A stretch of 39,246 nucleotides of DNA from a virus. A program made the position numbers and the translations under genes. The stretch covers positions 1 to 39,246 of IMG/VR virus record IMGVR_UViG_3300030105_000091; one strand, given 5' to 3'. Of the stretch, positions 4,680 through 33,586 are shown piece by piece; within the stretch, counting starts at the first letter, position 1; each line of letters begins with the position of its first letter. The notes beneath the pieces were generated by a model. It was not told the DNA's origin and made no database searches. It saw only the letters and a list, made by a program, of their open reading frames with translations.

Positions 4680-5144
4680 TTAAAGGTCGATAGCCTGTTG
4701 ATACAGAACAGTGAAACGAATTGTTCCTGCATTAGTAGCACCAGTAGTGGTTACTGTAAGACGTTTTTCAGTACCAACGTCTGCCCAAGCCAATGCTCCA
4801 CCTGCTTCAGTAGTAGGGTATTTACGACCTGCACCGGAAGCGGCAGTAATTGAAAATTGGTTTAGAAAAGTAGCGTTGCCGCCAACAGTATCGCCAATGC
4901 TCAGTACGCAAGTTGCGTTTGCAACAGCAACAGATACCTCAATAACGATGTCAATAATTTGTGATGCAGCTGGGATTACGATATCAGTAACAGTGGCTGC
5001 TTGTGCGCCACCTGCGGTACTAAAAGCAGCGGTCTGAGCCATAACGACTTGACCAGTGTTTTTAACATTTACACCTAACGTAGTTCCAGTTGTTTCTTTA
5101 ATTGTTCCGGCCTTGATAGGTCCAGAGAATGTAGTAATACCCAT
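4680..5144 (-). CDS. Beta-rich capsid accessory or decoration protein (putative)
   Basis: The product has 154 residues, almost entirely Ala, Thr, Gly, Val and Ile, with the pattern of a beta-sandwich (DIVIPAASQIIDIVIEVSVA, GTIRFTVLYQQA). An AGGAG lies 6 nt before the ATG. It is the first gene after the terminator that follows the capsid gene, so it is probably expressed by read-through or from an unseen promoter. Its place next to the major capsid gene favours a decoration or capsid-stabilising role. Confidence 0.55.
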   Translation of the reverse strand: MGITTFSGPIKAGTIKETTGTTLGVNVKNTGQVVMAQTAAFSTAGGAQAATVTDIVIPAASQIIDIVIEVSVAVANATCVLSIGDTVGGNATFLNQFSITAASGAGRKYPTTEAGGALAWADVGTEKRLTVTTTGATNAGTIRFTVLYQQAIDL

Positions 5145-5220
5145 GATTATCTCCTGTCAGGGTTAAGTCAGTCGCACCATGCAACTGTCAGGGATACAGG
5201 TACCCTACAACACCTTTACG

Positions 5221-8887: not shown

Positions 8888-11309
8888 CGAGGTTCACTTT
8901 CTCTGCAATGTCCATAGCTAGACGCGCCGCGGACTCCTTCTGATCTGTTTCAAGCTCTGCAACCTTAACGCCAATACGTGCCGCTTCTTTCTCCTCTTCG
9001 GAGTCGATACGTGCCTGTTGTAGTCGGGCGTTCTCTTGCTTGGACATAGCGTCGATATTAATCTTCAGCTTATCCATCTCGATCTTGTGCTTCAACTCAG
9101 TCTCTTTAATCATCAACTCGCGTTGCTGAATCTGAGTAAGTGGATCAGCCTGCTGTGCAGCGGCTTGTTCTGCAGCTGCTTCGGCTTGGCCTTTTTGGAA
9201 CAGCTTCTCTGCAGCTTTCGCGGACAGTCGTGAGACCTGAAGCTCTATATCTTCTGGTAACGGTGCCTCTGGGTCTGGAAGTTCTACGCCTAGCTGTTTC
9301 TGTATCTCTACACGATATTGTAGCGCTACGTGCTCCGTAATGTGAGACATCATAGCGGACTGAATTGCGCTCGCGAACGGTGATTGCCCCACAATCTGCA
9401 TGATCTTAGGGTCTTGCATCGCCATCATATGAGTCTGGATATGCGCCTCATGGTCTTGATAAGCAAAGGCTTTGACCGGCTCTTGTTTTAAGATAGCCAT
9501 ATTCTCAGTTACTGGGTCAGCGGGTTTAATATCTTCGGCTAACGTAATGATATCGTCAGCGTCTTTAATACCCAGAACTTCGAGCATCTGACGGTGCAGC
9601 TTGCCCATATTGTACATTTGTGGTGCTTGCTGGGCCAGTTGAAGTGCAGCTTGATACTGCATTATGCGTTGCGCCATTGTAGCCGCGTTAGGATCAGACA
9701 CTGGGATGACATCTACCCGGCCATCAAAGTCTGCTATACGATCTGCGGGTTCGTCCATCTCATACGCGTACTCAGAAGGCATGTAATCATGTACGATCCT
9801 AGCTAAGATACGAAGCTCTTGTTTCATCGCTGCGTGCAAGCGAGCCTGAATACCCGACATTACCTGCATAGAACGCTCCATAAGCGCCAAAGTCGTTCCT
9901 ACAGGAGCCTGAGCGTTGATATCACCCATTTGGATGTCACCTACCGCCGCAATACGTCTTCCTTCATCTACGACGTTCCCAAGTAGTGAGTAGAGTACGC
10001 TTGATGGTTCTTTGTAAGGAAGGGGTACAATGGACTCTTTAATCGTACCAGCTGGCACGTCCACGTCACGAAACTCACCCGGCATGATTGGGGTGTTGTC
10101 CCCGGTGATACGCATGCCTCGGGCTTTAAAGCCTGCTGGGAGGTTAGATAACGTACCTGCATCAATAAGCTGACGCATTATAGAGGTAGCAGATTTGGTC
10201 AAGCCCCCTAGCGTGTGTATAAGCCCTGTACCGTAGAAACCCATACCGGGCAAATACGGATAATGTACGACGTGCATACGCTTCTCGCGCTTGCTGTCTT
10301 CTTCATACCAATTTCGACGGATAGCTAGAATTACGCTAGACGATTTATCAATCGTTACTACATACGGCAGTGAAACACCGTCTACATCATCGAAAGGCTC
10401 AGGTAGGTCTAAATCTACATGCATTTCTAGAACAGTATGTCGTGGGTCGTCAGAGTAAGTAGCTTCAGAACCTTCTAGTTCGTTGTACTTCTCTTCAATG
10501 TCAGTGACATCTTTAGTTGCTTCAGGCAGTTCGACGTCACGGTAGAAGCCGTTTACCTGTAGTTTAAGTACTTCTTCAGGTGTTTGCTTCATAACATGCG
10601 TAAATCGTGGCGCGGTTCGTAAATTAGACGCGCCGTAGGATACTACAAGGTCTTCTGCAGGAACAAACTGGGACACAGGACGTTCTGTTATAGGATCGAA
10701 GTAGATTTTCTTAAATGCGGAGCCAGCCATCGGGAGTTTGAACAACATCTGTTCCATCTCGTCACGGTAATCCGGCATCTTTTCAGTAATAAGGTAGTTA
10801 AGTTCGGTCTCGACACGTTGTGCCTGCTCAAACTTCTCAGATGTCATCTTGCCTACAATCTTGCTGCGTACGGGTCCTGCTGCTGGGAGAAGTTCTCCCA
10901 TCGCCTGCGCTTGGAATTTAATCACCGCTTCGGTCATCATAGGGTGGTACACCCCAGAAGCTCCGTTCCACGGTTCGGTACGCTCCTCTACCTTCATACC
11001 GAGAAGGTCCATACCCTTAATATAGGCACTGGCCCATTCACTGCGAGATTCACGATCAGAGGAAAAGTGTTCTATTAGCTCGCTTGCTATTTCCTCGAGT
11101 TCGTCGTCGTCAATAAATTCAGCTAGGTTGGAATCGTGAGAAATATCTTCGTCCATCTCAGGTGTATCACCAAACTCAACCACAATAGACCCGTCATCCA
11201 TAACAACTTCTATAGCTTCTGGGTCTTCCACTTCGATAGTTAAATCAGGGGTTAGCTCGTTCTCCTCAAAGAGAATATCACTAGGTTCCATAGGTTTTTC
11301 GACTGCCAT
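8880..11309 (-). CDS. Portal protein, P22-like, long form
   Basis: The 809-residue product has an acidic N-terminal extension (1-70), a portal core with EPWNGASGVYHPMMTEAV, PAEDLVVSYGASNL and MHVVHYPYLPGMGFYGTGLI, and the segment TKSATSIMRQLIDAGTLSNL typical of P22-type portals. The region from about 690 to 800 is a Gln/Ala/Glu-rich coiled coil, comparable to the long barrel helix of P22 gp1. It forms the dodecameric DNA channel at one capsid vertex. It lies downstream of terL across a 179-bp structured spacer. Confidence 0.85.
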   Translation of the reverse strand: MAVEKPMEPSDILFEENELTPDLTIEVEDPEAIEVVMDDGSIVVEFGDTPEMDEDISHDSNLAEFIDDDELEEIASELIEHFSSDRESRSEWASAYIKGMDLLGMKVEERTEPWNGASGVYHPMMTEAVIKFQAQAMGELLPAAGPVRSKIVGKMTSEKFEQAQRVETELNYLITEKMPDYRDEMEQMLFKLPMAGSAFKKIYFDPITERPVSQFVPAEDLVVSYGASNLRTAPRFTHVMKQTPEEVLKLQVNGFYRDVELPEATKDVTDIEEKYNELEGSEATYSDDPRHTVLEMHVDLDLPEPFDDVDGVSLPYVVTIDKSSSVILAIRRNWYEEDSKREKRMHVVHYPYLPGMGFYGTGLIHTLGGLTKSATSIMRQLIDAGTLSNLPAGFKARGMRITGDNTPIMPGEFRDVDVPAGTIKESIVPLPYKEPSSVLYSLLGNVVDEGRRIAAVGDIQMGDINAQAPVGTTLALMERSMQVMSGIQARLHAAMKQELRILARIVHDYMPSEYAYEMDEPADRIADFDGRVDVIPVSDPNAATMAQRIMQYQAALQLAQQAPQMYNMGKLHRQMLEVLGIKDADDIITLAEDIKPADPVTENMAILKQEPVKAFAYQDHEAHIQTHMMAMQDPKIMQIVGQSPFASAIQSAMMSHITEHVALQYRVEIQKQLGVELPDPEAPLPEDIELQVSRLSAKAAEKLFQKGQAEAAAEQAAAQQADPLTQIQQRELMIKETELKHKIEMDKLKINIDAMSKQENARLQQARIDSEEEKEAARIGVKVAELETDQKESAARLAMDIAEKVNLDG

Positions 11310-11488: not shown

Positions 11489-13054
11489 TCAGTAATACGC
11501 CGCCTTACGATGTAAATATGAGTCATCGTCCTCCATGTCCGTAGGTAAACGGATAAATCCACCCTGACGGAATCTTAGGAGAGCCATAACCGTACTGTCG
11601 ACTAAGTCATCGTTTGACATGAATGGAAACCCAGCCACTTCTTCTACGAGCTCGTCTGCCCAACGAGTGGCGGGTACCCAGACCATGCCTGAAGAAATAA
11701 TATCTGACACAGAGTTAAGCCGTGCTAACTTATCACCAGTCCCTCGGTGGGGTGTGTACTCGGTGACAGGCAGGCCCATGCGTCGCATCTCTTGGTAGAG
11801 TGCTACACCAGAACTTTTCTTCTCCACAATGAACGCGTCAGGGTCCCAGTGGTTGTACTGTTCCATCGCCAGCTCCTTGAGCTCAGGAAACTCCAGCCGT
11901 TCTTTTATACTGTCAAGTAGAATAATGTTGTGTGAACTTGTTTCCTCGTGAAAGAACACGCCCCAAGTGGTAAGTGCGGTGTAATCGGCCCGGTTATGCT
12001 TCTCTGCCGCGGCATCTAGGGACATAATTACGTACTCAACCGACGGGAGCTTGTCGTTCTCCCAAATGTTCCACCATTCACGCTTCACAATAGAAGCTTC
12101 TTCGGATGTGGGCTGCTGCTGGTACTGCGAGTTCCACTGGAACGCAGGCATTGAGGCCTTGGTTCGCTTTAACGCCGCAAGATCAAAGAACTCCGGCCAT
12201 AGGGGCTTCTCTATTGGTTTACCCTCTTTGTCTTCAGAGTCTAAAATTGCAGGGAACTCAACGATTTCGTACTGGTCAGCCTCCTCATTCTTAACCATAT
12301 CGTTGGTCACACGACCTGTTAGGTCGTCCATATGCCACCTAGTCTGCACGATAGCTACACGCCCCCCGGGCATTAGTCGTGTTCGGGCACCGAAGGTAAA
12401 CCATTCGTAAGCTTTTTTAAAGACGGAAAAGTTGCCGTTGATAACATCTTGTTCAGAATGAGGGTCGTCGACCAACAATAGGTCAGCGCCACGCCCAGCC
12501 AAAGCAGAACCAATACCACACGCAAAATACTCTCCTCCAAAATTTGTGTTCCATCTACCAGCTGATTTACTGTCTACCGCAAGAGAAACCTCTGGAAATA
12601 TAGATTTGTACTCCTCTACGGCAATAAGGTTACGAACCTTACGCCCAAAATCCACCGCTAAGTCTGTGGTGTGTGACACCATCATCACTTTTTTGTTTGG
12701 GTTCCTACCTAAGAACCATGCAGGGAAGAAAATAGACACAAGCTGTGACTTACCATGTCGTGGTGGAATGTTGACACATATACGGTCTTCATCTCCAGAT
12801 TCAATCGACATAAGCATGTCTGCGAGGATTCTATGGTGCTTCCCTACTATGAACCCCGGCATCATCGCCTTGCAAAACTCTATGAGATCGTCATGCGCCG
12901 CCTTATTTGCCTTCCGCGTGGAGAGTTCTCCCACGATTGTGTCGATCTCGACAAGCTCTTCGGGGCTAAACGAGTCTAGATTGTCCAGTATGCGCTGGAT
13001 ATCCTCCGGTGAGAAGTCCATATCCTTAGCTAAGTTAGCTAAATTGCTAGACAT
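11489..13054 (-). CDS. terL: Terminase large subunit
   Basis: The 521-residue protein has a Walker A motif PPRHGKS at about 97-103 and Walker B LLLVDD at about 192-197, followed by the coupling region. A C-terminal RNase H-like nuclease has an acidic residue in SLDAAAEKHNRADYTAL, a second in DAFIVEKKSSG and a third in DDLVDSTVMALL. It translocates DNA into the procapsid and cuts concatemers. The start overlaps the upstream small-subunit gene by 8 bp. Length and motif order are normal for the family. Confidence 0.93.
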   Translation of the reverse strand: MSSNLANLAKDMDFSPEDIQRILDNLDSFSPEELVEIDTIVGELSTRKANKAAHDDLIEFCKAMMPGFIVGKHHRILADMLMSIESGDEDRICVNIPPRHGKSQLVSIFFPAWFLGRNPNKKVMMVSHTTDLAVDFGRKVRNLIAVEEYKSIFPEVSLAVDSKSAGRWNTNFGGEYFACGIGSALAGRGADLLLVDDPHSEQDVINGNFSVFKKAYEWFTFGARTRLMPGGRVAIVQTRWHMDDLTGRVTNDMVKNEEADQYEIVEFPAILDSEDKEGKPIEKPLWPEFFDLAALKRTKASMPAFQWNSQYQQQPTSEEASIVKREWWNIWENDKLPSVEYVIMSLDAAAEKHNRADYTALTTWGVFFHEETSSHNIILLDSIKERLEFPELKELAMEQYNHWDPDAFIVEKKSSGVALYQEMRRMGLPVTEYTPHRGTGDKLARLNSVSDIISSGMVWVPATRWADELVEEVAGFPFMSNDDLVDSTVMALLRFRQGGFIRLPTDMEDDDSYLHRKAAYY

Positions 13055-13926: not shown

Positions 13927-13987
13927 GATGTTATCAAAAGCGAAACATACTGTGACGCTAAGATATATATTCTCGAAAGGATATACC

Positions 13988-14563
13988 ATGACACGAATGA
14001 TAGACATACTACCACATCAAACTAACCACCCAATGCTAGGCGCCGAGCTAGGTGCTGAGATTGCCAAGTTTAGTAAAGGCGTAGTCGGCCAAGATAAGAA
14101 GCTTACAAAGGTTCTTGATATGTTTAAAGCAGGCGGGTTCAAAAGCACTGACCTAATCAGCAACACTTCAAAAGGTTCAACAGCAACCGAGGAGATGTTC
14201 ACATGGTGTAAGCAAATGATAGCGAGTGGATTTCCAGCCGGAGTTAAAGAGCTTTGTGAGCTATCGCCAAAAGCGGCCGGTGATAAAGTGGTCGATGGTC
14301 GAAATAGATCATACTGGGCAAGACAACCGAACTCTATAATCGGTGGATTGCAAACGCAACTAAAGAATAGAGAGCAGATCGACGCTGAGATAGCAAGCGG
14401 TAAGCAAGGTGCTGATGCTAGGACAAGATCGTCTGAAGCGATTGCCAAAGGTGAACTAGGCAAAGTAATAACCCGCTTACAAAAAGCAGAGGTATTCGAA
14501 ACAACTATGGATTTGGATGTTATGATATCGCAACTACGAGCGATGGTTAAATCAATCCGCTAA
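13988..14563 (+). CDS. Early protein of unknown function
   Basis: I place the start at 13988, where GAAAGGAT lies 6 nt upstream; the frame extends further but without a ribosome site. The 191-residue product starts MTRMIDILPHQTNHPMLGAEL and is mostly charged helices (QDKKLTKVLDMFKAGGFKS, IAKGELGKVITRLQKAEVF), with a basic middle part (RNRSYWARQPNS). No recognised DNA-binding or catalytic motif is seen. As first gene of the early unit, controlled by a promoter with an operator-like site, it is a candidate regulator or host-takeover protein; that is inference. Confidence 0.65.
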   Translation: MTRMIDILPHQTNHPMLGAELGAEIAKFSKGVVGQDKKLTKVLDMFKAGGFKSTDLISNTSKGSTATEEMFTWCKQMIASGFPAGVKELCELSPKAAGDKVVDGRNRSYWARQPNSIIGGLQTQLKNREQIDAEIASGKQGADARTRSSEAIAKGELGKVITRLQKAEVFETTMDLDVMISQLRAMVKSIR

Positions 14564-14959: not shown

Positions 14960-15062
14960 CTTAATTATGCCAGTTCTCCGAGCAGCTTTGCGACACATCG
15001 TACTTCGTGTGTACATCTTCTCGTATGTTTATGTACGTCGTGTGACAAGACTCTCTAATAAG

Positions 15063-15077
15063 GTAGTGAACCACTAC
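15063..15077. promoter_or_regulatory. Operator-like palindrome, copy 3
   Basis: GTAGTG-AAC-CACTAC with perfect 6-bp arms. It ends 10 bp before the third direct repeat, the same spacing as copy 2. Confidence 0.7.
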
Positions 15078-15142
15078 TATATCTATACCAGTTCTCCGAG
15101 CAGCTTTGCGACACGACATGTATGCAGAGGCCTTATTTTTAT

Positions 15143-15244
15143 AATGTTCCACTATAATGTTCCTAATGTTCCACAAGAAGTTCCACAGTAGGCAAAAATA
15201 AGTCATTGATTTTACTATAATGTTCCTAATGTTCCTAATGTTCC
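15143..15244 (+). repeat. Cluster of six AATGTTCC elements (left arm)
   Basis: Exact copies lie at 15143-15150, 15156-15163, 15165-15172, 15219-15226, 15228-15235 and 15237-15244. Several are spaced by 9 bp in tandem (AATGTTCCT). All point the same way, and the mirror-image cluster follows about 90 bp later. They look like iterons of a replication origin or repeated sites for one DNA-binding protein. Confidence 0.85.
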
Positions 15245-15335
15245 ATATAAAAAAATATAACACTTCCTACGCGACCCCCCATCTATAATGCGATGTAAGC
15301 CCCCAGCACAAATCCCAGAACACCCAAAAAATGAC

Positions 15336-15455
15336 GGAACATTAGGAACATTGGAACATTCGTTTATTATCAAGCACTTACAGATACACCATGTGGAACA
15401 TTACAAAACCCCATCGGAACATTGTAATCATATCAATAACTTAGCACGGAACATT
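15336..15455 (-). repeat. Cluster of six GGAACATT elements (right arm)
   Basis: Exact copies, inverted relative to the left arm, lie at 15336-15343, 15345-15352, 15353-15360, 15395-15402, 15416-15423 and 15448-15455. The first three are nearly contiguous. Between the arms lies an AT-rich core near 15246-15263 that could melt easily. The sequence is not an alphaproteobacterial LexA box, which needs GTTC-N7-GTTC. Confidence 0.85.
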
Positions 15456-15468
15456 ACCCAGCAACACA

Positions 15469-15483
15469 GTAGTGTCTCACTAC
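15469..15483. promoter_or_regulatory. Operator-like palindrome, copy 4
   Basis: GTAGTG-TCT-CACTAC with perfect 6-bp arms, 58 bp upstream of the -35 element of the main early promoter. Confidence 0.7.
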
Positions 15484-15541
15484 GCTACACAATCATGTAC
15501 CACCTGACACCACGTCTCACCACAGGACACACTCAGAAAGC

Positions 15542-15570
15542 TTGACATTCCTTATATGCTATGGTATAGT
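15542..15570 (+). promoter_or_regulatory. Main rightward early promoter, near-consensus sigma70
   Basis: TTGACA at 15542-15547 is a perfect -35. TATAGT at 15565-15570 follows after 17 nt. Transcription should start near 15577 and read into the 18-kb rightward operon. Operator-like palindromes lie on both sides, at 15469 and 15633. Confidence 0.8.
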
Positions 15571-28640: not shown

Positions 28641-29030
28641 ATGGCTGTGTCGGTAGACAAGTTAGTTAAGGCGTACACTAAGATACGCGACAAACGTTCG
28701 GAGCTATCTTCCAAATACAAAGAGGAAGAGGGTAAGCTCCGTGAACAACAAGACAAGGTAAAACTTGCTTTGTTGGAATATTGCAAAGAACACGAAGTCG
28801 ACAGTGTACGCACTGCTTCGGGTTTGTTCTATCGCACTGTGAAGCAACGATATTGGACGAGCGACTGGGAGTCCATGCACAAGTTTATCATGGATAATGA
28901 ACTCCCTGAGTTTTTCGAGAAGCGTTTAAACCAAACCCATGTACGCCAGTTCATTGAGGAAAACCCTGACCTAGTTCCGGCAGGCCTTAATGTAGATTCT
29001 GAGTACGCAATCTCTGTGAGGAAAAAATGA
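28641..29030 (+). CDS. Coiled-coil replication-module protein, unknown function
   Basis: CGGAG lies before the ATG. The 129-residue protein begins with a long charged coiled coil (KAYTKIRDKRSELSSKYKEE), followed by TASGLFYRTVKQRYWTSDW and a C-terminal domain (FFEKRLNQTHVRQFIEENP) ending in a strand YAISVRKK. The layout recalls the siphovirus Gp157 group, but sequence similarity is not clear. It overlaps the following HTH gene by 4 bp. Confidence 0.6.
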   Translation: MAVSVDKLVKAYTKIRDKRSELSSKYKEEEGKLREQQDKVKLALLEYCKEHEVDSVRTASGLFYRTVKQRYWTSDWESMHKFIMDNELPEFFEKRLNQTHVRQFIEENPDLVPAGLNVDSEYAISVRKK

Positions 29031-29251
29031 GTGACATCGAATCACCATACGTAAATATAAACAAGGTAGTGGATTACTTTCAAGTGTCCCTATCTACAGT
29101 TCGCAAGTGGATATACACAGGTAAAATCCCTGCTAGTACCTACATACGAGTCAACGATGTTTATCGGTTTCGGCTCGACGAAGTAGAAGCGGCACTAGCT
29201 TCTGAAACCAATAAGGCTCATAAAGAAGCCTCAAAAACAAAAGGAGAGTAG
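29027..29251 (+). CDS. Excisionase/MerR-like helix-turn-helix protein
   Basis: The 74-residue product has the HTH_17 pattern: NINKVVDYFQVSLSTVRKWI, then YTGKIPASTYIRVNDVYRF with the winged strand, and DEVEAALASE. This fold binds DNA in excisionases, RDFs and small phage regulators. No integrase is in the window, so a regulatory or replication role is more likely. It is a second candidate to bind the dispersed palindrome. Confidence 0.75.
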   Translation: MSDIESPYVNINKVVDYFQVSLSTVRKWIYTGKIPASTYIRVNDVYRFRLDEVEAALASETNKAHKEASKTKGE

Positions 29252-29254
29252 TTG

Positions 29255-29968
29255 ATGGTAGACCTATTAACTTTCGGGAGTGGTGGTAGTCCTAATCGGA
29301 TTAGCCTCCGTGGTGGACGTTTCCACTACTCCATTGGCGGCGAGCACGTCAGCGCAAGTGATGGTCCTTTAAATTTAGTTATAGTGAACGCCGCAAAGCT
29401 GGCTCGTACTTACTATGAAGATGCGTACAATCCAGCAAGCCCCTCTGCCCCGACATGTTGGTCGCCAGATACGCAAAGACCATCTAAGGATGTTCCGATA
29501 GGCCGAAAGCAAGCTAACCGCTGTATGGACTGTCGACAAAACATCAAAGGTTCAAGCATCGGCGGAGGTCGAGCTTGTAGGTACTCGCAACGTCTAGCTG
29601 TCGTATTGGAAGGACAGATGAATACAGTTTATCAGATGCGTATCCCTGCTACGTCTATTTTTGGTAAAGACCAGAAAGGTGATAGGTCTATGCAGGGATA
29701 CGCTAAGTACTTACACAGACACAAAACTTCATCAATATCGGTGGTTACACAGGTACATTTTGATGAAAAGTCTGTGACACCTAAACTGTTTTTTAAGGCT
29801 GTTCGTGCGCTTAACGAACAAGAACTCAAGAAGGCGCTTGAACAGAAAAGTAGCTGTGCGGCAAGCATAGCTACCTTACAGACCGTGTCGGTTCAATTAG
29901 AAACCGCAAGGGACAACTCTCCGTTTACAGAAGTAAACGGTTTTGAATATAACAAAGGAGAATACTAA
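29255..29968 (+). CDS. Four-cysteine zinc protein paired with SSB gene
   Basis: GGAGAG lies 6 nt before the ATG at 29255; a TTG three bases earlier is too close. The 237-residue protein has cysteines at 68, 90, 93 and 108 in a loop (CMDC flanked by single cysteines), probably a zinc site. The N-terminus is beta-rich (RISLRGGRFHYSIGGEHVS). The C-terminal half has QVHFDEKSVTPKLFFKA and a helical end. The stop overlaps the next gene's ATG by one base. A DNA-binding or recombination-mediator role is inferred from the neighbour. Confidence 0.6.
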   Translation: MVDLLTFGSGGSPNRISLRGGRFHYSIGGEHVSASDGPLNLVIVNAAKLARTYYEDAYNPASPSAPTCWSPDTQRPSKDVPIGRKQANRCMDCRQNIKGSSIGGGRACRYSQRLAVVLEGQMNTVYQMRIPATSIFGKDQKGDRSMQGYAKYLHRHKTSSISVVTQVHFDEKSVTPKLFFKAVRALNEQELKKALEQKSSCAASIATLQTVSVQLETARDNSPFTEVNGFEYNKGEY

Positions 29969-30675
29969 TGGCATCAGCCAAACAACTACAACTAATCAAG
30001 GGTGTCGAAGCCCACTACCCACGTCTTAATCAAACATACAGATTTGATAGGAGTGTTCCCCCTAAAGGGAAGACAGTGCCTTGTGGCCCTACCGAAGAAA
30101 ATGCAAAGTATGAGACAAAGTTTCGTATGAACACTGCACAAGCTAAAGAATTGTATGATGCTATGGCATCTGCATACAAAGAAGCGGCGGAACCAAATTG
30201 GCCTGATATGCCGAAGCCTGCGGAAGTGTTTGAGAAAGACACAGACGGTAAGTATATCGGCGCGGCCCAACTAAAGGGTCAGTATTCCGGTGTTATTACC
30301 GAAAAACCTCTACAAGTGGACGCAAAGAATAGAAAATTACCTTCTGACTTTGAACTCACACACGGCAGTATTGTAAACATGGGGTTAACTCTTGTACCGT
30401 ACAGCATGTCTACTCATGGCGTATCTTTACGGCTAAAGGCTGTGCAGGTTATAACATTAGCGGATAAGAAACAACATTCTCCGTTTGATACACAAGATGG
30501 TTTTTCTCTCGATGAAGATGATCCATCTGTCATATTCGGGGATGTGGCTGACTCTGCTCCTGCTGAAGTAGATGAAATGCCCGAACCAGTAAAGGTCGCC
30601 AAGAAGAAAGAGGTATCTGCTCCCTCTGCTAGCGAGGTTGATCTTGCGTCTATCGTAGACAACTGGGACGACTGA
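29968..30675 (+). CDS. Single-stranded DNA-binding protein (gp2.5/DUF2815-like)
   Basis: The 235-residue protein has an OB-fold-like body (residues 15-170: YPRLNQTYRFD, GVITEKPLQVD, NMGLTLVPYSMSTHGVSLRL) and an acidic tail with DEDDPSVIFGDV and a final DLASIVDNWDD. An acidic tail ending in aromatic and acidic residues is the polymerase/helicase docking signal of phage SSBs such as T7 gp2.5. Its place before the primase-helicase fits. Family membership is judged from architecture. Confidence 0.7.
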   Translation: MASAKQLQLIKGVEAHYPRLNQTYRFDRSVPPKGKTVPCGPTEENAKYETKFRMNTAQAKELYDAMASAYKEAAEPNWPDMPKPAEVFEKDTDGKYIGAAQLKGQYSGVITEKPLQVDAKNRKLPSDFELTHGSIVNMGLTLVPYSMSTHGVSLRLKAVQVITLADKKQHSPFDTQDGFSLDEDDPSVIFGDVADSAPAEVDEMPEPVKVAKKKEVSAPSASEVDLASIVDNWDD

Positions 30676-30766: not shown

Positions 30767-33586
30767 ATGAACAACTTAGATTTTTTAAAAGGATTACTCA
30801 GCGAGTCAGGGCACTATTGCGTGTTCGCCGTTAAAGGTAATGTACGCATACAAAAGTTTTACGATACTATTGAAGACACAGAAAGAGCTACACGTAAGTT
30901 TATAGCAGACGGGATGAACACATACTTCGCTTTGAGTACATTTAAAGAAACGACCAAAGATGCGGGACGCAAAGGCGCGAACGCACACGAGTTGAAGTCT
31001 TTCTTCCTCGACTTGGATTGTGGACCAACATACGAATACCCTACCAAAGAAGCCGCGGTATCTGCAGTACGTGATTTCTGTAAGAAGCTGTCGCTACCTA
31101 AACCCCTAATGATTAACAGTGGTCGAGGCGTACATGTATATTGGCCTCTTACCGAAGCAGTTTCGGCGGAGCAGTGGCTTGTAGAAGCCGGCAGACTAAA
31201 GCGATGTTGTTCTGAGAACGGCTTGCTTGCTGACCCTGCGGTTACTGCTGACGTTGTGCGTGTACTACGTATGCCGGGTTCAAAGAACTACAAAGAAGAG
31301 CCACCGCTACCAGTAGATTTCCTTGGTGTGTCTATGCCAGAACCTATTGCGCTAGAAGACTTTACATCCAAGCTAGGGGTTCTAGCGAAGCCAGTTATTA
31401 AGGCCGACTTGGGTACTGATGCTCTTTACGAAGCCTACGCCGAGAATACTGAAAATGTTTTCAAGACAATCATTAAGAAGACTGTCGAAGGTCGAGGATG
31501 CGAGCAGTTAAAGCACATTGCTATGAACCAAGCAGAAGTGAGCGAGCCTCTATGGAGAGCAGGTCTATCTATTGCAAAGTTCTGCAGTGACGGGGATATG
31601 GCCGCGGTAAAGATATCAGAGAAACATCCCGCATACAACGAAGCAGATATGCGCAAGAAGACGGACGAGATCAAAGGCCCATACACCTGTGCAAGTTTTA
31701 ACGACCTTAACGAAGGCACATGCCAAAACTGTACTTTATGGGGCGAGATCAAATCCCCGATTGTACTGGGCAAGCGTATTCGGGAGTCCGAAGGCGAAGT
31801 GGTAGTATCAGCACCGATTCTAAAGGCCGGTATAAGGCAGTCGGAAGAGTTTGAGATACCAGAATACCCTAAGCCCTACTTCCGTGGAGCGGCGGGTGGC
31901 GTATTTTTACGAAGTAGCAACTCTGACGGGGACGTCGAAGAGGAGGTTATATACCACCACGACATTTATATTACTCGGCGTCTACATGACATCGAACTGG
32001 GCGAAACGTTAGTGTTCCGCTTACATTTACCAAAAGACGGTGTACGACAATTTAACGTGCCGCTTACCCATATAACTTCTCGTGAGGAGTTCCGTAAGTG
32101 CATGGCTAAAGAAGGCGTCACTTCATGGGGAAAGGCTCTAGATAAACTAATGGCATACACAACAAAATGGGTAGACGAACTGCAACGGACGACTGTGGCT
32201 GACGAGGCGCATCGCCAATTCGGTTGGGTCGGTGACGATATGGAATCCTTTGTACTGGGAGGCAAGCTAGTCACTGCAACAGACGTCGACTTAAACCCTC
32301 CATCGGCAAAGACAGCAGGTTTGATTGACTCGTTCGAGCCCAAAGGCACACGTAAAAGGTGTGTTGAGCTAATGAATTTCTATAACAAACCGGGATATGA
32401 ACTGCACCAGTACGTGTTGGGTATAGGTTTCGGCTCACCACTCATGGCTGTTACAGGTCTAAACAGTATGGCTGTACATCTTTATGGTGGTTCTGGAGTA
32501 GGTAAGACCACTGCTCAAATGGCGGCACTGGGTATATGGGGCAGTCCTGACGACCTGATGAACAAACCCGAGGACACCCACAATTCGCGGATGAACCGTG
32601 GAGAGGTTATGCATAACATACCTCTAGTGTCTGATGAGATGACTAACGTCACAGGTGAGCAGATGTCTGAGTATGTTTATCAGGTGTCTGGAGGGCGTCA
32701 GAAAAACCGCCTGTCTTCTAACGGCAACATCGAACGCGTGCGGGGGAAACCTTGGCAACTACTGGCACTAAGCTCAGGTAACACAAGTGCATGGGAAGTA
32801 TTGGGGCGGCACAAGGCTACACCAAAAGCAGAAATGTATAGGATGTTCGAAATTCATGTGCAGAAGAAGCACTTTATTAAGGGGCACAACACCGAGACTA
32901 CCCACCTGTTTAGTGACTTCAAGAATAACTACGGGCATATAGGGGTGGAGTATATACAGTGGGTTATCAACAACAAAGAAGAAGTGCGTCGCACAGTAGA
33001 TGCTGTGCGTGAACGTATAGACAAAGCCGCGGGTCTCGGCCCCGAACATAGGTATTGGTCTAACGGTAACTCTGTTATTATCGCAGGGCTTATTATCGCT
33101 AAGAAGTTAGGCTTTGTGGATTACGATGTAGGTGCCGTATACAAATGGGTTGTAGGAGAGCTTATTTCCCGCAACAGCTATGTCAATGATGTAGGGTCAT
33201 CTGTCACCCAGACACTCAACAACTACTTGTCAGAAAACTACAACAACATGCTCAAGATTGAGAGCACCGAAGACCTTCGTGGGAAGCACGAAAATGGTTT
33301 AGACCAACTTGTACCTATCGGCGCATCGCCCCGCGGGCATTTGGTTGCACGGTACGAGCCAGATACCAAGTTATTATTCCTGCGCCTCAAGCCATTCCGA
33401 GAGTGGTGTGTCGATCAGCAGATTAATTATCAAGGCGTAGTGGATGAATTGAAGAGTAAGCTAGGTGCAAAGCGAACAAAGAAACGCCTTACTAAAGGCA
33501 CTGACTTCAACCTGCCACCGGATTGGGTGTTAGAGATGGAGTTTGCAGCGATGGAGCAAGATAGTGACGGATCAGAAGGTACTTAA
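30767..33586 (+). CDS. AEP primase fused to DUF927/SF3-like helicase
   Basis: GGAG at 30755-30758 supports the ATG at 30767. The 939-residue protein opens with an archaeo-eukaryotic primase: FFLDLDCG (D82, D84), SGRGVHVYW (H123) and RVLRMPGSKNYK (R165-K176). A linker with a Cys pair (TCQNC) follows near 325-330. The C-terminal DUF927-type helicase has YGGSGVGKTT near 573-581, a Walker B-like PLVSDEM near 620 and LALSSGNTSAWEVLGRHKA near 665. It should prime and unwind at the replication fork. Confidence 0.85.
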   Translation: MNNLDFLKGLLSESGHYCVFAVKGNVRIQKFYDTIEDTERATRKFIADGMNTYFALSTFKETTKDAGRKGANAHELKSFFLDLDCGPTYEYPTKEAAVSAVRDFCKKLSLPKPLMINSGRGVHVYWPLTEAVSAEQWLVEAGRLKRCCSENGLLADPAVTADVVRVLRMPGSKNYKEEPPLPVDFLGVSMPEPIALEDFTSKLGVLAKPVIKADLGTDALYEAYAENTENVFKTIIKKTVEGRGCEQLKHIAMNQAEVSEPLWRAGLSIAKFCSDGDMAAVKISEKHPAYNEADMRKKTDEIKGPYTCASFNDLNEGTCQNCTLWGEIKSPIVLGKRIRESEGEVVVSAPILKAGIRQSEEFEIPEYPKPYFRGAAGGVFLRSSNSDGDVEEEVIYHHDIYITRRLHDIELGETLVFRLHLPKDGVRQFNVPLTHITSREEFRKCMAKEGVTSWGKALDKLMAYTTKWVDELQRTTVADEAHRQFGWVGDDMESFVLGGKLVTATDVDLNPPSAKTAGLIDSFEPKGTRKRCVELMNFYNKPGYELHQYVLGIGFGSPLMAVTGLNSMAVHLYGGSGVGKTTAQMAALGIWGSPDDLMNKPEDTHNSRMNRGEVMHNIPLVSDEMTNVTGEQMSEYVYQVSGGRQKNRLSSNGNIERVRGKPWQLLALSSGNTSAWEVLGRHKATPKAEMYRMFEIHVQKKHFIKGHNTETTHLFSDFKNNYGHIGVEYIQWVINNKEEVRRTVDAVRERIDKAAGLGPEHRYWSNGNSVIIAGLIIAKKLGFVDYDVGAVYKWVVGELISRNSYVNDVGSSVTQTLNNYLSENYNNMLKIESTEDLRGKHENGLDQLVPIGASPRGHLVARYEPDTKLLFLRLKPFREWCVDQQINYQGVVDELKSKLGAKRTKKRLTKGTDFNLPPDWVLEMEFAAMEQDSDGSEGT

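Follow-up and report, generated by a model that had tools for sequence, protein, structure and literature searches.

In the origins of iteron plasmids such as pSC101 and R6K, iterons are combined with an IHF bend and an AT-rich melting tract; the plasmid iterons are direct repeats of about 17-22 bp, often accompanied by DnaA boxes. Replication of phage P4 needs two separate cis sites. In P4 a single protein, alpha, serves as primase and helicase and binds the origin repeats with its C-terminal winged helix (PMC4234260, together with general background). The C-terminal domain of the SaPI Rep protein recognises an iteron origin, according to the passages of PMC7581432 that cite Ubeda 2007, and in the related Cch2 of SCCmec the C-terminal domain binds direct repeats (PMC7581432). 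Primases fused to a DUF927 domain and a C-terminal winged helix have been predicted to read origins (PMC5862659). A different mode of binding is that of BldC, which forms cooperative multimers on 9-bp direct repeats of AATTNNNNC (PMC5859096, PMC11963761).

The element described here lies in the 39,246 bases of virus DNA of IMG/VR record IMGVR_UViG_3300030105_000091 (the window, i.e., the whole stretch that was analysed), which represent a partial phage genome; the genomes of relatives measure about 60-65 kb. The late genes portal, terL and terS read leftwards and the early and replication genes rightwards, and positions 15143-15455 sit between them. The sequence-only reading had noted six copies of AATGTTCC followed by six of GGAACATT, and this proved exact: AATGTTCC starts at 15143, 15156, 15165, 15219, 15228 and 15237 on the plus strand, and at 15336, 15345, 15353, 15395, 15416 and 15448 on the minus strand. 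With a stray copy at 12065, the only one elsewhere in the window, the total is 13, as against 1.1 ± 1.0 expected, a number reached in 0 of 100 shuffles. Some copies stand in 9-bp tandem, as had been noted (15156/15165, 15219/15228/15237 and 15336/15345), together with one 8-bp step (15345/15353). The element and the promoter that follows it are composed as follows.

15143-15172, plus strand: left outer group of three AATGTTCC iterons (15143, 15156, 15165)
15199-15211, minus strand: IHF-consensus site TAAGTCATTGATT, 7 bp before the left inner iteron group
15219-15244, plus strand: left inner group of three iterons in 9-bp tandem
15245-15266: AT-rich tract of 22 bp, 14% G+C, candidate unwinding element
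15267-15335: central stretch with C tracts, ACGCGACCCCCC...TGCGAT, 51% G+C, kept in close relatives
15336-15360, minus strand: right inner group of three GGAACATT iterons with 9- and 8-bp steps
15368-15380, plus strand: IHF-consensus site TATCAAGCACTTA
15395-15423, minus strand: right outer iterons (15395, 15416)
15431-15443, plus strand: IHF-consensus site TATCAATAACTTA
15448-15455, minus strand: right outermost iteron
15542-15570, plus strand: early promoter, sigma-70-like and near-perfect, TTGACA-17-TATAGT, 87 bp past the last iteron

The core between the two arrays had been described as AT-rich, which holds for the tract at 15245-15266 but not for the central stretch; that the core has only 22 AT-rich bases in the window counts against reading the element as an origin. 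Within the central stretch, GACCCC is found in 28 of 64 elements. The iterons of the phage differ from those of the plasmids in being 8 bp long and mirrored, and the element lacks a DnaA box, the sole match to TTWTNCACA in the window being at 10214. An initiator encoded by the phage is therefore expected. The region is non-coding, as had been thought, since the ORFs that cross it (14961-15263, minus strand, and 15288-15545, plus strand) are present in only 11 and 5 of 75 loci, respectively, all of them close relatives.

The array is kept in relatives. When IMG/VR was searched for exact copies of AATGTTCCTAATGTTCC, at least 119 stretches were found, about 35 of which have 8-12 sites in 500 bp, mostly mirrored. 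The loci with the array have terL, terS, portal, DUF3150 and MoxR in a common order. Many further loci came from profile scans with terS and DUF3150, and in these the common word is AATGTTC plus a next base that depends on the lineage. At least five copies of ATGTTC within 450 bp were found in 56 of 67 non-redundant terS-DUF3150 intervals, whereas mononucleotide shuffles never gave more than three. The other 11 intervals mostly have a variant array (AATGTTAC, GTAACA or AATGTT) or fewer copies; in one of the relatives (L218) the interval scan found no clustered 6-mer, yet degenerate copies are present. Thus, array and gene order are kept while the word drifts, and relatives with the same gene order nearly always retain the repeats. 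In 64 non-redundant elements, 556 of 582 AATGTTC sites face inwards. The inverted layout had been thought unusual; within the clade it is the rule (60 of the 64 relatives). The commonest step between neighbours of the same direction is 9 bp, and among the longer steps there are peaks at 42, 32, 21 and 53 bp. The longer gaps thus lie near whole helical turns (R=0.62 near 10.5-10.7 bp, 167 gaps), a value given as a description and with no p-value because the elements share ancestry. Each of the genomes examined has only one array, which lies upstream of its DUF3150 gene.

Three of the four strict IHF-consensus sites of the window fall within the 313-bp element, a feature overlooked by the sequence-only reading. 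In relatives, many iteron groups are preceded by YAAGTNNTTGAW, which fits the published IHF consensus, WATCAANNNNTTR, on the opposite strand. The 64 elements hold 46 strict sites, as compared with 3.0 ± 1.7 in dinucleotide shuffles, and 36 of the 46 stand exactly 7 bp before an iteron; the density of the consensus is 1.82/kb in the elements and 0.057/kb in the flanks, a 32-fold difference. From this consensus, the element is presumably bound by IHF. It also seems possible that the extra GT in the spacer reflects another bending protein instead of IHF. Furthermore, in 58 of the 64 cases the 60-bp stretch of lowest stability in the 5 kb around the element falls inside it, with a chance level of about 9%; in the window, this minimum begins near 15199.

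The element is directly upstream of the early promoter, as had been noted, and the operon after it codes for a DksA-like zinc finger, DUF3150, a MoxR-like ATPase and a DUF2201 VWA protein. Around this region there are eight dispersed copies of the palindrome GTAGTGNNNCACTAC in the window (14945, 15063, 15469, 15633, 15927, 19155, 20397 and 22626), as against 0.02 expected. In the same region, relatives carry other palindromes that are specific to their lineage (GTAGTTTAAAACTAC in L056, TTAGGTAATTACCTAA in L305). As the word differs between lineages, the palindromes look like a set of operators or stoperators whose specificity changes. To the left of the array, CCAGTTCTCCGAGCAGCTTTGCGACA occurs as three direct copies (14882, 14970 and 15088), and many relatives have a CCAGTT-like element at that position. 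With a near-perfect promoter 87 bp away and separate operator-like palindromes around it, the array may also, or only, regulate early transcription. That it is an operator or enhancer of the early promoter and no origin at all seems improbable to us, as facing arrays over 300 bp, the IHF phasing and a melting minimum are more than operators usually need, and the dedicated palindrome set already resembles repressor sites.

The pac site of P1 has short repeats on either side of the cut and is aided by IHF. The array is always 1-2 kb from terS, its center has C tracts, and there is a mild excess of contig ends near it (12 of 71 within 250 bp), all of which would suit a cos or pac site read by TerS. 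However, the ends are scattered, with no single base preferred, and most contigs pass through the array; two circular genomes (G010 and G011, with overlaps of 126 and 127 bp) contain it internally. Since contigs, including the two circular ones, run through the element, we regard a packaging role as very improbable. Moreover, a separate conserved C-rich element, with contig ends of its own, adjoins terS. This C-rich stretch, similar to GACCCCCACCCCCCTCTATATAGGAACACCCCCCGGTAGGAGTCCCAAC, lies within about 150 bp upstream of terS in L186, L189, L194, L218, L231 and others, contigs frequently end at most 500 bp from it, and it is a candidate packaging site or late promoter. Partition (centromere) and recombination sites likewise have repeat arrays and IHF sites, but the window has no tyrosine integrase and no partition ATPase was seen among the genes scanned, so that we give a function of either kind hardly any credence. 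The gene at 13985-14563, in the gap between terS and the array, has a constant place, filled according to lineage by proteins of 190-240 residues from at least four families with no apparent relationship. It was considered as a binder of the array and rejected for that reason.

The sequence-only reading recognised no dedicated initiator and suggested that the primase-helicase or a small HTH protein could bind the repeats. The replication genes of this part of the window are the following.

29027-29251, plus strand: HTH_17 (BldC/Xis-like) protein of 74 residues, rival or accessory iteron binder
29252-29968: conserved protein with no function assigned, core replication gene of the clade
29968-30675, plus strand: Gp2.5-like single-stranded-DNA-binding protein, of the same operon
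30767-33586, plus strand: candidate initiator, AEP primase, DUF927 AAA+ helicase and C-terminal winged helix (about residues 810-932)

Together with PolA, an exonuclease and an SNF2 helicase, these four proteins make up the core replication genes of the clade, and the primase-helicase is present in every near-complete genome searched. Its N-terminal part matches AEP PrimPols (6zp9, RepB'). When a profile of 37 relatives of the protein was compared with the PDB, the only matches were SaPIbov1 Rep (8tch, 2.5e-16) and SCCmec Cch (5dgk, 2.2e-11), and the same two came first when an AlphaFold model was searched with Foldseek (3.5e-16). A separate model of the C-terminal part shows a winged helix, with a pLDDT mostly above 80 over the core. 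Its best structural matches were the C-terminal domain of Rep (Z 8.5, 93 residues, 3.0 Å) and that of Cch (Z 8.1), followed by the pCW3 relaxosome accessory protein, the structure of which includes oriT DNA (Z 7.4); a Z near 8 may be fortuitous on the scale of the tool itself, but the two top matches are also the sequence homologues. A SaPI-Rep-like candidate thus exists after all, with a C-terminal winged helix that matches the origin-recognising domain of SaPI Rep. Of the binders suggested earlier, the primase-helicase is now the best candidate, as judged by homology and predicted fold.

The locus resembles a SaPIbov1-type origin in having several short iterons and a DUF927-family initiator helicase with a C-terminal winged helix. 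It differs in that the phage protein has a primase fused on, the element has built-in IHF-consensus sites and the setting is that of a phage with probable proteobacterial hosts. In addition, the SaPI origin adjoins rep on its downstream side, whereas the array is 15 kb upstream of the primase gene, a distance that counts against the origin reading; no copy of AATGTTCC lies downstream of that gene within the window. The putative origin of SCCmec comes with a related DUF927 helicase, Cch, but has three 5-nt iterons in an integrated element, as against 12 octamers in two facing arrays. The domain plan of P4 alpha is similar, although the primase is of the bacterial TOPRIM type in P4 and of the AEP type here, and the phage element has one array in place of the two cis sites of P4.

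A natural comparison bears on which protein reads the repeats. The array word is AATGTTCC in G034 and AATGTTAC in its close sisters G055 and G056 and in the more distant G057. Compared with the primase of G034, those of G055 and G056 are about 90% identical and that of G057 is 79% identical. In the C-terminal domain, the wing of G034 is QLPPANVI, as against VLPLTHVL, VLPLTHAL or ILGLTHVL in G055-G057. Where the latter have the L before TH, the 21 other wings in the scan (G034 included) have P, A or S in every case; all but one of the 21 belong to genomes in which a TGTTC array is clear. V stands there in G010 and G011, the phages with mixed arrays. The density of change in the wing is not exceptional or significant alone, and it concerns one lineage. 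In contrast, the recognition helix of the HTH_17 protein does not sort AATGTTCC from AATGTTAC phages. As the wing differs with the repeat word and the helix does not, the comparison favours the primase as the putative reader of the repeats. The idea that the eighth iteron base varies strictly with the proteins was also considered, and dropped because this base is too mixed within genomes.

The HTH_17 protein could nevertheless act at the same origin, lined up head to tail on the 9-bp direct repeats and recruiting or regulating the helicase. Its gene is a core member of the replication operon, its PDB matches, although weak, are to Xis Gp37 and BldC, and 9 bp is the commonest iteron step, as in BldC sites, with the word AATGTTCC in place of AATTNNNNC; the tandem sites would suit head-to-tail binding as in the winged-helix filaments of BldC and Xis. 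However, the helix fails to separate the phages as the wing does, and a distant relative (G012) keeps the array, yet only a fragment of the HTH_17 protein is recognisable there. On balance we think this arrangement unlikely, and an AEP primase-DUF927 helicase acting through its C-terminal winged helix most likely reads the iterons.

The layout of the array, its phasing, single position and conservation, the IHF sites, the melting minimum and the SaPI-Rep-like helicase in the same genomes together fit a replication origin, as had been proposed, and we consider it highly probable that 15143-15455 is the origin of this phage. An iteron origin is of a known kind; the IHF-phased facing arrays are a new variation on it. 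Replication would start at the element with the binding of the primase-helicase to both facing AATGTTCC arrays. An IHF bend between the iteron groups would gather the phased sites, the AT-rich tract would then melt, and two facing initiator assemblies would load as ring helicases and prime, with a handover to the PolA of the phage after priming. More tentatively, and with rather less than even confidence, we suggest a clade-wide class of origin in which IHF-registered facing arrays set two fused primase-helicase assemblies head to head, for a bidirectional start with a double hexamer like that of T-antigen or E1, and in which the initiator wing evolves together with the repeat word from lineage to lineage.

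A turning point of the GC skew at the element had been suggested as a check. In six genomes the cumulative minimum is 0.4-2.4 kb away from the element, to one side or the other. It falls at 17.7 kb in the window, and in the two circular genomes it follows the element by 0.9 and 1.6 kb. However, the skew tracks coding direction, also for plus-strand genes to the left of the array, so it decides nothing, and it was set aside as an origin test.

The origins of environmental phages are rarely known. Because the element follows a fixed rule (facing octamers, an IHF consensus at a fixed 7 bp and one array upstream of DUF3150), its sequence is enough to locate it in a large clade of uncultured phages. 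Its pairing with a SaPI-Rep-like initiator links satellite and phage replication, and initiator specificity could readily be tested on the natural changes of the repeat word.

BLASTN of the region against the INPHARED phages gave no match, with chance pieces alone at a lax limit. No such array was seen in the stretches read in the cultured relatives by terminase, HTVC027P, HTVC023P, 023Pt_psg01, DSL-LC04 and MinM2, nor in those read in a cultured relative by replication genes, RHph_TM3_14A. Contigs of bacterial and archaeal genomes include a few relatives of the primase, the best of them in alphaproteobacterial bins, and none of these contigs has the array region. Pseudomonas phage Rollin, with a primase that is 30% identical, has a palindromic repeat cluster, AAAAGGTAG...CTACCTTTT, with one IHF-like TAAGTGGTTGATTTT in bases 1-500 (L129). 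Possibly, this cluster is the origin of that phage; as a parallel to the mirrored iteron element it is suggestive only. Elsewhere in the window, positions 5142-5193 on the minus strand match the Mu-gpT-DE RNA of Rfam at 61 bits (gathering threshold, 49).
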